This document shows, piece by piece, positions 26,628 through 32,542 of a stretch of DNA of 33,771 nucleotides. The DNA comes from Bacteriovoracaceae bacterium. GTDB lineage: Bacteria; Bdellovibrionota; Bacteriovoracia; Bacteriovoracales; Bacteriovoracaceae. The stretch lies in the NCBI GenBank assembly GCA_947446575.1, contig CANFHC010000032.1, forward strand, positions 1 to 33,771. The letters run 5' to 3'. A program made the translations under genes and the position numbers. Within the stretch, counting starts at the first letter, position 1. Every line of letters begins with the position of its first letter. Under the pieces are notes generated by a model, which saw nothing but the letters and a program-made list of their open reading frames with translations, was not told the origin of the DNA and searched no databases.

Positions 26628-27662
26628 TTAGATTTTGGTATTGAGTTGACCGCAAGCAGCTAGGATATCATCGCCTTTTGTTCCCCGAATGAGCGCCGGC
26701 AACTTATAACTTTCTAATATTTTTTGAAAAGCTTCGACTCTAATATTTTCAGGTCTTTCATATTCTGTTCCAGGAAACGGATTGAATGGGATAAGATTTA
26801 TTATAGCTTGTTTTCCTTTCAGCAATTCTCCTGTGGCGTGAGCATCAAAGTCAGAATCATTAAAATTTTTTATAAGTAGATACTCGTAAATGACATATTG
26901 TTTTCGTTTTAGAGGAATCAAGTCGAGATATTTTAAAATTTCTTCTAGAGGGTAGCGCTGATTGATAGGAATAAGTTTATTTCTTTTTTCTTCAATGGAA
27001 GAGTGTAGTGAAAGTGCAATATTCACTCCCGGTATTTCATTGTTCCATCTTAATAATCCTGGAAGATACCCCGCAGTGGAGACGGTAATTTTTTGAACAC
27101 CAATACTTGTTCCGTGTTGATCAAGAAAAATTTCAATGGAAGTTTTAACAGCATCAAAGTTATGAAGTGGTTCACCTTGTCCCATATAGACAATGTTTTT
27201 TAATTGATGATCTGCTGGCCTCTGCTTTTTTAACCAGCGATCTGCCAAGATAAATTGACCAACAATTTCATGAGTTGCTAAATGTCTTTTTAACCCTTGA
27301 GTTCCTGTAAAACAGAAAGAACATTTCATTGCACAACCAACCTGAGTAGACAGACAGATTGTATATTTATTTTGAAAGGGAATAAGTACCGTTTCCACTT
27401 TCAATCCATCGCTCATTTGAATTAAAAACTTTGCAGTATGATCGCTGGATTCATGAACATCGATGATTATTGGTAGCTCAAAGTTGAAGTTTTCTCGCAA
27501 GTATTCTTGAGTGGCAAGTGCAAGATTGTGAGTGCAAGGTTCAATGTTTTTTTGTTTGTAGTGCCAATTAAAAAGCAATGAGGCGCCAGACACTGAAAGA
27601 TCATTTTCTTCCAGTATTTTTGTAAGTTCTTTAAAATTATATTGATAAAAAGATGTTTTCAT
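26628..27662 (-). CDS. rlmN: Dual-specificity 23S rRNA/tRNA m2A methyltransferase
   Basis: RlmN is a radical-SAM enzyme that methylates C2 of A2503 in 23S rRNA and A37 of some tRNAs. The ATG at 27662 gives 344 residues in line with the family. A GTG at 27704 would add 14 unusual residues, and neither start has a Shine-Dalgarno. The [4Fe-4S] motif is Cys110-x3-Cys114-x2-Cys117, followed by M-G-Q-G-E-P-L and the S-T-A-G region. The C-terminal A-C-G-Q-L cysteine (about 337) is the catalytic partner that carries the methyl group. Confidence 0.95.
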   Translation of the reverse strand: MKTSFYQYNFKELTKILEENDLSVSGASLLFNWHYKQKNIEPCTHNLALATQEYLRENFNFELPIIIDVHESSDHTAKFLIQMSDGLKVETVLIPFQNKYTICLSTQVGCAMKCSFCFTGTQGLKRHLATHEIVGQFILADRWLKKQRPADHQLKNIVYMGQGEPLHNFDAVKTSIEIFLDQHGTSIGVQKITVSTAGYLPGLLRWNNEIPGVNIALSLHSSIEEKRNKLIPINQRYPLEEILKYLDLIPLKRKQYVIYEYLLIKNFNDSDFDAHATGELLKGKQAIINLIPFNPFPGTEYERPENIRVEAFQKILESYKLPALIRGTKGDDILAACGQLNTKI

Positions 27663-27726
27663 TCTTGAGGTAATTCGTAGCACGGAAATAGGTATAAATT
27701 CCACTATGAAATATTGAAAATCTCAT

Positions 27727-27738: not shown

Positions 27739-28158
27739 ATGAAAAAAATTAATTTAAGCTTCTTGGTTGTTCTTATGCTCTCAGCTTGCACTCGATCTCC
27801 AGAAAAACCAAAGCTAACAATAAGCGAGTATACTCAACAGGCAGTTATCATTAAAGGCGTTTTAGAAAAAATATTAGCTGAAACAGACTATAAAAAAATG
27901 CATGAAATTGCCCAGGCGGTTGAAAGTTCAAGGGCTGTTAATTGCATAGCTATATCTGAAGAATGTAATGTGTATGGTGAAGTCTTAAATAAAATTGTTG
28001 AAGGCACGCAAAAGGGGCTTCCAGGAGAGGCTGAGAATGTGGCTATCTATAAAAAGATTGGTGACCTAGATCGCTCCATAACTGAAGGACATGAAAAACT
28101 AGCAGAAGACTGGAAGTTATATATCAACGCAAAATCGAAAGCTGAAGAAGGAAAATAA
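27739..28158 (+). CDS. Small lipoprotein of unknown function
   Basis: The 139-residue product starts with a lipoprotein signal ending at the lipobox L-S-A-C (residues 14-17). The mature part is helical and charged, with two cysteines close together (N-C-I-A-I-S-E-E-C). No family is recognised. The gene lies 76 bases from the rlmN start in the divergent direction. It probably has its own leaderless promoter. Confidence 0.75.
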   Translation: MKKINLSFLVVLMLSACTRSPEKPKLTISEYTQQAVIIKGVLEKILAETDYKKMHEIAQAVESSRAVNCIAISEECNVYGEVLNKIVEGTQKGLPGEAENVAIYKKIGDLDRSITEGHEKLAEDWKLYINAKSKAEEGK

Positions 28159-28281
28159 GAGACTTAGAACTGTCTATAGTTTAGTCAGTTTTGTAAGTTT
28201 TACCAAGGCGTCTTAGTATCAATTGAGATAACTCCGGCAAATGGCATTATTAGGCATTCATACTAAACATGGAGCTAAATT

Positions 28282-29421
28282 ATGTCTTTGAGTCGTAATA
28301 CTGTATTAACCGCTATCACACTTGCTACTTTATCAACTTTAAGCTTTAGCGCCACGGCTGCTAGTACTTCTGTTTGTAGTGATCCAATTCAAAAAATCTG
28401 TACAGATACTCAAGGCCAGCGGGCCGATAGAGCAAAATATGTAGCTGCTTTGAAAGCAGAAATTTCAGCTGAAGCAGAAAGAAATGCAGCACCTAGAATT
28501 GAAGAAATGAAAAAGCAAATTAAGCCTATTCGTTTTATCAAAAGAGCATTGGCTAAATTAAAAATTAGAAACCAAGAAATAATGAAATCAGCGAAAACAA
28601 GAATAGGCGGATTTGAATCAGTTGTAACTAATAATGGAAATGTTCAAAGATTAAAAAATTTAATGTACTCAGCTATCGATACAAGTAATTTTAGTGCGAA
28701 TTCAAAAGTTCAATTTAAAGAAAATATTAAATCAATAGTCATTGGTAACTTTGCAGACTTTTTAGAAAGAACAGATTTAGAAAACGATGTTTTGTCTCAA
28801 ATTTTAGCAAATGCTTGTGGATCAGATGGATTGATCGATAATGCTTTCGCTACCACTATTAAAGGTGAACGCTACGTTCTTGTTTGTCCAGGCTTCTTGA
28901 TTACTCTAAATCAAACAGCAAGCGATTCAGATCGTTTCAACAGCATCCTGCATGCGATCTCACATGAAATGGGTCACCATATCGATAATAGCAAAATTGG
29001 AAATGATTTATACGCTCCTTACTTGGGATGTTTAGCGAAAAATTATTCTGATCGTTTTCAACAGACAGCTGATGACCAAAAATTTTGTAAGGCCAATGAA
29101 AAAGAGCCAGCAAAATGTAATGAAAAAGTTGCTCTTAGCCATGCAGGAGAGTTGATCGCGGATCAATGGGGGCTTCGTACGACTTCGATTTACTTAAATG
29201 AAGAAAGATATTCTTCTGGAGATGCTGAACAAATGTTGACTGATAGTTGGGCAAAACTTTGTGGAACGGGAGATGAAGGAATTCACCCTACGGGAGACTT
29301 TAGAATCGGTACTCTGATGAGAAAAAATCCAGGGATCAATGGGTTCTTAGGATGTAATACTTCTGAGACAGATGCAAAACCAGCTTGCACTTTTGATGGA
29401 GAAGTTTCGGCTTCTAACTAA
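28282..29421 (+). CDS. Short secreted neprilysin-like (M13-type) zinc metallopeptidase
   Basis: ATGGAGC precedes the ATG, and residues 1-26 form a signal peptide. The 379-residue protein lacks the large N-terminal lobe of M13 peptidases but keeps the catalytic order. D-N-A-F with downstream P-G-F-L corresponds to the neprilysin substrate-binding strand. His228-Glu229-x-x-His232 is the zinc site, then Glu290-x3-Asp294 (E-L-I-A-D, 58 residues after the second His; 59 in neprilysin). Last comes His335-x5-Arg341 with N-P-G-I-N-G-F-L-G-C. Cysteines suggest disulfides. It should cleave peptides outside the inner membrane. A clear terminator follows. Confidence 0.8.
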   Translation: MSLSRNTVLTAITLATLSTLSFSATAASTSVCSDPIQKICTDTQGQRADRAKYVAALKAEISAEAERNAAPRIEEMKKQIKPIRFIKRALAKLKIRNQEIMKSAKTRIGGFESVVTNNGNVQRLKNLMYSAIDTSNFSANSKVQFKENIKSIVIGNFADFLERTDLENDVLSQILANACGSDGLIDNAFATTIKGERYVLVCPGFLITLNQTASDSDRFNSILHAISHEMGHHIDNSKIGNDLYAPYLGCLAKNYSDRFQQTADDQKFCKANEKEPAKCNEKVALSHAGELIADQWGLRTTSIYLNEERYSSGDAEQMLTDSWAKLCGTGDEGIHPTGDFRIGTLMRKNPGINGFLGCNTSETDAKPACTFDGEVSASN

Positions 29422-29430
29422 AGAGATAAT

Positions 29431-29458
29431 AAGGCCCGGAGTAATCCGGGCTTTTTTT
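29431..29458 (+). terminator. Intrinsic terminator after the metallopeptidase gene
   Basis: GCCCGGA (29434-29440), GTAA loop, TCCGGGC (29445-29451) and seven T residues. Confidence 0.95.
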
Positions 29459-29465
29459 ATTTAAA

Positions 29466-30074
29466 CTAATTGACCGTCACCCAAACATTACTAATTCCAT
29501 TTCTTCTAACGAGCACATTAAAAATTTGACCATTATCAGGATGTAATCTTATACATCCATGACTTGCTGGATTTCCCAATTTCCCCCAATTCCCTCTAGT
29601 TGTTCCATGAATCGCATAACCACCTCTGATGAAAACAGCGTAGGGCATATTACCCAAGCCATTATAATCTCCGTCGGGATACTTAGTAGAAGTATAGCGG
29701 TCATAAATTCTGCCATCTGGATGTGTATCGAAGTCAGGCGTCGTGTATCCTGCTTTACCTGTAGATGTTTTCCAGGTGTAAGTTAAAACTCCATCGATAT
29801 AGAGATAAAGTCTTTGTGCACTTTTATCAACGTCGGCCCAAATTTTACAAGAGTTGCGATAGCAGCTAGGACTCAACATTTCTAAGATATCAACTTCTAG
29901 GTGAGATGGTTTACCAGTTGTTTTTTCATAGTCTTCATCCATTTCTTTTAATTGTTTTTCTATCGTAGGTGATCTTGGATCCAATTCATCAAAAACGTTA
30001 TTTCCTTTTATATGTTTTGCGTTAGCGGTGCCGTTGTATAATGTCAATGCGAATGCTAAAACTAATGCTTTCAT
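29466..30074 (-). CDS. Secreted L,D-transpeptidase (YkuD domain)
   Basis: The 202-residue protein has a signal peptide (about 1-19, ANA/K), a helical linker and a C-terminal YkuD domain. The domain contains R-L-Y-L-Y-I-D-G, I-H-G-T and the catalytic S-H-G-C-I-R-L near the end. L,D-transpeptidases make 3-3 cross-links in peptidoglycan or attach proteins or D-amino acids to it. In predators such enzymes may act on the predator's own wall or the prey wall, and sequence does not tell which. Two further cysteines (S-C-Y-R-N-S-C) precede the domain. It is convergent with the peptidase gene. Confidence 0.93.
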   Translation of the reverse strand: MKALVLAFALTLYNGTANAKHIKGNNVFDELDPRSPTIEKQLKEMDEDYEKTTGKPSHLEVDILEMLSPSCYRNSCKIWADVDKSAQRLYLYIDGVLTYTWKTSTGKAGYTTPDFDTHPDGRIYDRYTSTKYPDGDYNGLGNMPYAVFIRGGYAIHGTTRGNWGKLGNPASHGCIRLHPDNGQIFNVLVRRNGISNVWVTVN

Positions 30075-31530: not shown

Positions 31531-31585
31531 TAAAAAAAGAGCATCTCAAAATTATTAAATAATTTGAGATGCTCCCATTTTTTTA
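31531..31585. terminator. Bidirectional intrinsic terminator
   Basis: A 12-bp stem GAGCATCTCAAA (31539-31550) / TTTGAGATGCTC (31563-31574) extends by five more pairs past a bulge. A-run and T-run flank it on both sides. Confidence 0.93.
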
Positions 31586-32542
31586 TTGTTTTGTTATGGC
31601 TGTCATACCAACTTTTTTAGCTTGTGTTTTTGTATGTCTCATAATTTGTCCCACTTCTCTTTTAAAAGTTTTTTCATCGGCTTGAGATCCATTTAAAACT
31701 GTACTCCAAAGTCGAGTGACTGAAGCCATCGCAATTGCTTCGCGAAGTTCGCTGGTATTAGCGCCATTAACCTTTGCCGCTTCCGTAGAATAATAAGTAC
31801 ATTGAGGGCATGACATTTGAGATGCCACTCCCAGACTAATAAGTTCTTTTGCTTTGGCTGAAAGTTCTGTTTCTGGATTTAGTTCAACAGCTTTCATCAT
31901 TTTCCAAGCACTCGCTATACCATTTTCAGGAAACATGCGTAGTAGAGTTGGTACGGAGCCAAGTGTTTGCTCCATATCCTTATAGGCACTTTCAGAATCG
32001 ATAACTGCAATTGGTTGCATTGCTTTTTCTTGCTCAGAAGAACTGGAGCTAGCATCTTTAATTGGTTTGGTAAGTTCAGCTCTCATGTGGGCCATCATTT
32101 TATCAACATCTTTTGCGGCATCCGCTTCAGTCATTTGCACTCCACCAACATAAGTACCCCAGTGACGTGTTAATGCCGCCATTCCGACTGCCTCTTTAAT
32201 TTCGTCTTCACTAGCTCCATTCACCTTAGCTGCTTCAGTGTGAAGGTACACACAGTAATGACAAGGGATTTGAGATGCAACCGCTAATCCTATAAGCTCT
32301 TTTAGACGAGCAGGCAAAACTGTACTTGAGCTTAACTGAATACTTTTCATTTCTTCCCAGGCCGCTGGAAGTCCTGCTGTTGGAAATGATTTAATAAAGG
32401 TCGGCACAACTCCTAAAGTCTTTTGAATATCATCATAAGCCTTTTGCAAGTCGGCGTTTGATGTCGTCATAGTCGAGGCTGCAGAGGTAAAATTATTAAG
32501 AGAAAGTATTGTTAATGTCAGCACTGTTAATAAAAATTTCAT
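31583..32542 (-). CDS. Exported two-domain AhpD/carboxymuconolactone-decarboxylase-like protein
   Basis: AGGAGA precedes the ATG. Residues 1-22 are a signal peptide. Two homologous CMD/AhpD domains follow (about 30-160 and 181-310), 151 residues apart and joined by a Ser-rich linker. Domain 1 has the peroxidase-type C94-x2-C97-x3-His101. Domain 2 has C245-x2-C248 but Ser252 in place of His. AhpD uses such a CxxC as a thiol-dependent peroxidase or disulfide partner of AhpC, normally in the cytoplasm as a single domain. Export of a fused pair to the periplasm is unusual. A peroxide or disulfide-exchange role is inference. Confidence 0.88.
   Translation of the reverse strand: MKFLLTVLTLTILSLNNFTSAASTMTTSNADLQKAYDDIQKTLGVVPTFIKSFPTAGLPAAWEEMKSIQLSSSTVLPARLKELIGLAVASQIPCHYCVYLHTEAAKVNGASEDEIKEAVGMAALTRHWGTYVGGVQMTEADAAKDVDKMMAHMRAELTKPIKDASSSSSEQEKAMQPIAVIDSESAYKDMEQTLGSVPTLLRMFPENGIASAWKMMKAVELNPETELSAKAKELISLGVASQMSCPQCTYYSTEAAKVNGANTSELREAIAMASVTRLWSTVLNGSQADEKTFKREVGQIMRHTKTQAKKVGMTAITKQ

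Follow-up and report, generated by a model that had tools for sequence, protein, structure and literature searches.

In the window, the whole stretch of 33,771 nucleotides that was analysed, a small peptidase gene is found on the forward strand together with a frequent neighbour and putative expression signals. The features on which the following discussion relies are listed below, in the order of their coordinates.

27739-28158, strand +: small putative lipoprotein gene, a frequent neighbour of the peptidase gene.
28271-28274, strand +: GGAG, Shine-Dalgarno-like in sequence, 7 bases 5' of the ATG.
28282-29421, strand +: predicted miniature M13-like metallopeptidase, an open frame of 379 codons plus stop that begins with ATG and has orthologues.
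28282-28362, strand +: signal-peptide-like N-terminus, residues 1-27 (cleavage site placed by eye; pLDDT below 50).
28375-28401, strand +: C32-x7-C40, the probable counterpart of the N-terminal C-x7-C of M13.
28402-28611, strand +: residues 41-110, predicted helical, in place of the ~300-residue M13 lid (from the model and the neprilysin alignment).
28840-28848, strand +: N187-A-F, putative substrate strand, equivalent to neprilysin N542-A-F544.
28963-28977, strand +: H228-E-M-G-H232, putative zinc site and general base (HExxH in all 15 rows of the alignment of close relatives).
29149-29163, strand +: E290-L-I-A-D294, putative third zinc ligand and Asp (from the neprilysin alignment and family conservation).
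29284-29304, strand +: H335-P-T-G-D-F-R341, equivalent to neprilysin H711-x5-R717.
29431-29454, strand +: intrinsic-terminator-like hairpin and T run, just past the peptidase stop.

Regarding the neighbourhood, the gene order is a gene which we take to be RlmN-like (26628-27704), the lipoprotein gene, the peptidase gene and an L,D-transpeptidase gene (YkuD, 29466-30074). The same order is kept in genome G001, where the peptidase is absent between lipoprotein and transpeptidase, and the peptidase is thus an accessory gene in its genus, either lost in G001 or gained elsewhere. The lipoprotein carries a lipobox-like Cys17 and two further cysteines that are invariant in seven aligned sequences, and has no Pfam match at E 0.01. 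Of 129 genomes searched, 15 carry it, namely all 14 members of the genus and one further genome in the family. It lies less than 500 bases from the peptidase, on the same strand, in 10 of the 12 peptidase-bearing genomes of the genus (five times upstream, five times downstream); it is some 5 kb away in G004 and on a separate contig in G010. A functional link between the two genes is possible. That the two are obligate partners was rejected as a firm claim, since the searches of G001 and G007 recovered the lipoprotein and no 379-aa orthologue. Further along, on the reverse strand (31583-32542), lies the gene of a 319-aa protein with a signal-like N-terminus and two carboxymuconolactone-decarboxylase stretches, which looks like an internal duplication.

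The frame of the peptidase gene is open over its 379 residues, just as the sequence-only reading had described it. The source genome, from Bacteriovoracaceae, a family in Bdellovibrionota, is a draft in 71 contigs with a completeness of 95.5%. Matches to the peptidase (E ≤ 1e-3) occur in 17 of 97 genomes, its own included, and in 12 of 14 within the genus, where orthologues show 53-76% identity and, with start codons chosen by us, lengths of 373-382 aa (n = 10); relatives that are 54-76% identical also appear in nine Bacteriovorax sp. or Bacteriovoracaceae records, all of them metagenome-assembled genomes. Nine residues (N187, A188, H228, E229, H232, E290, D294, H335 and R341) are invariant across the 15-row alignment, which joins the window protein to 14 relatives. 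For the two closest orthologue pairs, dN/dS was 0.058/1.029 and 0.062/0.717, a ratio of ~0.06-0.09 (NG86), while synonymous sites are mostly near saturation in the remaining pairs. Judged from these substitution rates, the gene is under purifying selection. Given the orthologues in the genus, the invariant active-site residues and the low dN/dS, neither the frame nor its motifs are due to chance. Secretion is suggested by residues 1-27, which resemble a Sec signal peptide to the eye.

The motifs N-A-F, HExxH, ExxxD and His-x5-Arg, on which the sequence-only reading had built its proposal of a miniature, neprilysin-like M13 peptidase, are all present where it had placed them, and the spacing that it gave is correct: His232 precedes Glu290 by 58 residues, and His587 precedes Glu646 by 59 in neprilysin. 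In an alignment built on a profile of 54 family sequences, N187 corresponds to N542 of neprilysin, H228, E229 and H232 to H583, E584 and H587, E290 to E646, D294 to D650, H335 to H711 and R341 to R717. These neprilysin numbers are the chain index plus 53, verified on Asn542, Glu646 and Arg717, which are named in PMC4908401. Among 64 family sequences, for which HExxH was an entry requirement, E290 is kept in 64, D294 in 63, R341 in 62 and H335 in 58. The Asn of NAF is present in just 41 of these 64 wider relatives, and the family is therefore not uniform.

The mature peptidase has ten cysteines, and the close orthologues, 11 with the window protein counted in, retain every one of them. Four of the ten map to cysteines of neprilysin in the same alignment (C250 to 620, C327 to 694, C358 to 734 and C369 to 746), and cysteines 179, 202, 269 and 279 have no counterpart there. 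A C-x7-C near the N-terminus is found in all eight full-size M13 proteins of the phylum that served as our comparison set (for L065, when the whole frame is read); as the segment in the window protein aligns non-significantly when taken singly, C32-x7-C40 was equated with it by spacing and position. The neprilysin partners of the two C-x7-C cysteines are 734 and 694, and a further bridge links 620 to 746. With matching cysteines at hand, the three M13 bridges could form: presumably, going by these pairs, C32-C358 and C40-C327, through which the C-x7-C would tether the N-terminus to where the catalytic half ends, and C250-C369 as the third. Counted over the 64 sequences, C327 is kept in 63, C32 in 61, C40 and C250 in 60 each, C369 in 59 and C358 in 58. 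Disulfide cysteines are generally well conserved, according to PMC2259306.

Single-sequence searches gave little guidance as to the family. The sequence-only reading had proposed a search with the M13 profile PF01431, and this check went against it, as the window protein scores 12.9 bits for a cut-off of 24.5. The best PF01431 score among the 14 close relatives is 19.1 bits, and M13 matches were obtained for 4 of the 15 aligned proteins (best E 1.1e-3). Compared with NCBIfam, the single protein has sub-threshold matches only, including one to BhsA in the N-terminus (residues 7-70), far below the cut-off. In a Pfam scan of 25 members, 24 fall below every cut-off; the exception, L020, belongs to the 15-row alignment, whose other 13 relatives reach no Pfam cut-off, and ten diverse family members exceed no cut-off of either Pfam or NCBIfam. 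Likewise, phmmer and the 15-row profile returned no zincin, and hence no M13, among the matches listed from the PDB.

Since matches of this kind were indecisive, deeper family profiles were built from 66 distinct relatives, 52 found by hmmsearch (E ≤ 0.1) and 14 taken from the 15-row alignment, HExxH being present in 64. In hhalign, these 64 members match the eight full-size M13 proteins with a probability of 98.3 and an E value of 1.3e-14 over 241 columns, which run from the helices ahead of the NAY strand to the cysteine past H-x5-R, compared with 8.3e-6 for M48 and 0.32 for a reversed M13 control. With the 15-row alignment, the lead of M13 is small (2.1e-6 vs 7.4e-6 for M48), and the depth of the profile thus matters. 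Indeed, a diverse profile of 54 of the 66 relatives was needed to find M13 in the PDB, where, among 177,635 distinct sequences, neprilysin (1dmt) is matched at E 1.9e-10. M13 proteins (neprilysin, ECE-1, three PepO-type, one Lactobacillus and one Haemonchus) fill the first 12 places among distinct sequences, seven at E ≤ 5.8e-7 and five at 0.003-0.014, and the first non-M13 sequence, an M48 protein, follows at E 0.077. A YpfJ-type Zn_peptidase (PF04228), considered for a resemblance in CG, CP and HExxHH, was set aside; it was found in one genome out of 59 from the phylum and is absent from that of the window.

The predicted fold points in the same direction. The AlphaFold2 model of the window protein, computed from the 15-row alignment and no templates, has a pLDDT of 83.4 and a pTM of 0.83. 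In Foldseek against the PDB, the nine best rows are all M13 at a probability of 1.00 (best E 8e-4), with a modest TM of 0.48 by query length. In VIA-align, the first 15 entries are all M13 (Z 12.9-18.9; 281-311 residues matched at rmsd 4.4-6.4), most of them covering the model from a start at residue 28 or 29 up to residue 371 or 372, and in neprilysin the chain from 57-76 to 748-750; the next entry is ZMPSTE24 (Z 5.5), and Ste24p stands at Z 4.5. The high rmsd and modest TM might be accounted for if only half of the two-domain target is shared. A fold unrelated to M13, the outcome that the sequence-only reading had named as speaking against it, was thus not obtained in either search. In the BFVD, the top match is weak and is a mimivirus metalloproteinase (E 0.012). 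It is the family profiles together with the fold, and not PF01431 by itself, that settle the family assignment.

What sets the protein apart is the near-absence of a lid. Between the C-x7-C, counted from its first Cys, and HExxH lie 196 residues, compared with 465-480 in the eight full-size M13 proteins, which makes the window protein ~270 residues shorter over this interval and bears out the short N-terminal part that had been claimed for it. M13_N (PF05649) has no match in the window protein at E ≤ 10, in a search whose HMMER filters drop most weak matches. In the model, residues 44-79 and 85-108 form helices, and the alignment with neprilysin picks up again at about residue 109. Aligned singly to M13, none of the segments 28-60, 44-110 and 112-165 is significant; the last of these coincides with the helix pair that precedes NAY in M13, a region also covered by the deep profile alignment. 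Modelled in isolation (pLDDT 79.7, pTM 0.61), the N-terminal part retrieves unrelated, mostly helical entries at Z ≤ 5.7, with no M13 in the best 50. The preference of neprilysin for peptides has been attributed to its enclosed chamber (PMC4121237). With the lid missing, an open cleft is therefore likely in the window protein, and the predicted cleft is likely to be more exposed than in M13.

Within the phylum, the family is widespread and diverse. The 15-row profile (E 1e-3) matches in 86 of 368 Bdellovibrionota genomes, and the 54-row profile (E 1e-9) in at least 166 of 368 genomes and at least 93 of 181 genera, a count that misses weaker family members and may include some full-size M13, as the threshold lies just under the strongest M13 score, 7.3e-9 (9 genomes). 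No match was found in a plasmid collection searched with the single protein, no match to the peptidase was confirmed in viral contigs, and an origin from a mobile element was rejected on these searches. A second, larger relative exists in the genome of the window itself (G000:C16:36500-40500), a 635-aa frame with NAF, HEIAH, EAFAD and HPNSALR and without C-x7-C, which was found by the deep profile and missed by the single-protein search. A subgroup of ~370 aa from several families (L124, L127, L128, L139, L140, L143, L144 and L145) keeps C-x7-C, HExxH, ExxxD and mostly H-x5-R, has replaced NAF (e.g., by NDVYY or SEIYY) and shows VGG where others have CPG. A 787-aa frame (L017/L052, G033:C14) adds long extra N- and C-terminal parts to the peptidase region. 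Members also occur side by side. In two adjoining pairs, L050 with L134 (G138:C15) and L133 with L132 (G139:C1), one copy has HELSH and the other NELSQ, and the copies that lack both zinc histidines are possibly inactive paralogues beside intact ones. In a neighbouring pair at L109 (G360:C53), the second copy keeps HExxH and a Glu replaces the Asp of ExxxD.

Other explanations have to be weighed against an M13-type peptidase. It appears very unlikely that the protein is an M48-like gluzincin whose resemblance to M13 comes from the common zincin core. Its NAFA strand, HExxH and ExxAD do align with M48, and PF01435 is matched in 6 of the 15 aligned proteins (best E 3.4e-4), L020 exceeding the cut-off by 0.6 bits (20.9 vs 20.3, over the 53 residues 181-233); yet the window protein has no M48 match listed at E ≤ 10, M13 outscores M48 in the deep hhalign comparison, in the PDB profile search and in structural superposition, where the Ste24-type entries stay at Z 4.5-5.5, and H-x5-R and the M13 cysteines match neprilysin positions. 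An M35-like (aspzincin) peptidase is highly improbable, even though PF14521 provides the top Pfam score of the window protein and weak matches in 8 of the 15 aligned proteins (best E 2.4e-3). Its score of 17.3 bits misses the cut-off (30), and the match stops at residue 230, inside HExxH, and so does not reach the third ligand. Where an aspzincin would have Asp as that ligand, 64 of 64 sequences keep Glu290, 58 residues further along and at the M13 position.

An M13-like fold that no longer works as a peptidase, and whose role would be binding or that of an inhibitor decoy, is unlikely, albeit less so than either of these families. It could draw on the copies without zinc histidines that G138 and G139 hold beside intact ones and on the copy without ExxxD in G360, but none of the 11 close orthologues, the window protein among them, has lost a catalytic residue, and the dN/dS of the two closest pairs is low. 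As to the short length being an assembly or frameshift artefact, with the lid of a full-size M13 lost by error or decay, the chance is next to nil: the source is indeed a draft assembly, but the frame comes with a start site and a signal-like N-terminus of its own, the 10 orthologues are alike in length, the same architecture recurs across the phylum, and a separate full-size M13 is encoded in the same genome.

We thus return to the M13-type reading and to how closely it can be drawn. The catalytic-half fold, NAF, HExxH, ExxxD, H-x5-R, the four cysteines at neprilysin positions and the N-terminal C-x7-C are shared with M13 enzymes such as neprilysin, ECE-1, PepO and Zmp1, and in this respect the M13 identity originally proposed holds. 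It does not hold as regards the PF01431 score, M13_N and the C-terminal Trp (a C-x-x-W or V-x-I-W end), which is present in 8 of 8 M13 proteins, whereas the window protein ends in ...PACTFDGEVSASN. For these three reasons it is not filed as a canonical M13 member, and a more fitting label is an M13-like sister family or variant. The full-size M13 of its own genome (G000:C7, 657 aa) has a homologous catalytic half and C-x7-C and matches the profile of the small family weakly (E 2.2e-4); it differs in having PF05649 (residues 36-398, 139.7 bits) and PF01431 over the cut-off and 466 residues, instead of 196, between C-x7-C and HExxH. Size-reduced zincins have been described before, namely the mini-zincins and the mini-Glu-zincin Acel_2062 (M95), whose authors argue for derivation from larger proteins; according to that work, the relatives of Acel_2062 are minimal scaffolds of ~110 residues and belong to a different family (PMC3890501). 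In the window protein, by contrast, the reduction is confined to the lid, and the catalytic half of M13 is retained together with its C-terminal part.

Taken together, we consider it probable, at roughly 0.8, that the gene encodes an exported, disulfide-rich zinc endopeptidase that consists of an M13 catalytic half with almost no lid. By the roles of their neprilysin counterparts, His228, His232 and Glu290 would hold the zinc, Glu229 would activate water, and Asn187 and Arg341 would grip the substrate backbone; His335 and Asp294 presumably assist catalysis, as we assume from the same counterparts. With ~70 residues standing for a lid of ~300, the active site may be less enclosed and may accept larger or unfolded polypeptides, which would probably be cleaved ahead of hydrophobic residues, either extracellularly or in the periplasm.

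Bdellovibrionota is a phylum that includes obligate predators (PMC11656739). No mention of M13 was found in the main text of that paper, and among the papers listed in our literature searches, which covered few subscription papers, neither a miniature M13 nor any M13 from Bdellovibrio was seen to be reported. A use on prey proteins, raised as a possibility by the sequence-only reading, found no support in the analysis. A broader view, which we put forward tentatively and regard as somewhat doubtful, is that the phylum harbours a large, diversified and poorly labelled family of lid-less M13 peptidases, in which the size-selecting domain was lost or never present, an oligopeptidase fold would serve as a general proteinase, and active copies and local duplicates lacking the zinc site would stand side by side in some genomes. 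The family also points to a gap in annotation, 24 of 25 scanned members lying below Pfam cut-offs although the deep profile matches in at least 93 of the 181 genera. Finally, a natural M13 catalytic half that keeps its cysteines and has hardly any lid would offer a direct test of the role of the lid in substrate size and specificity.
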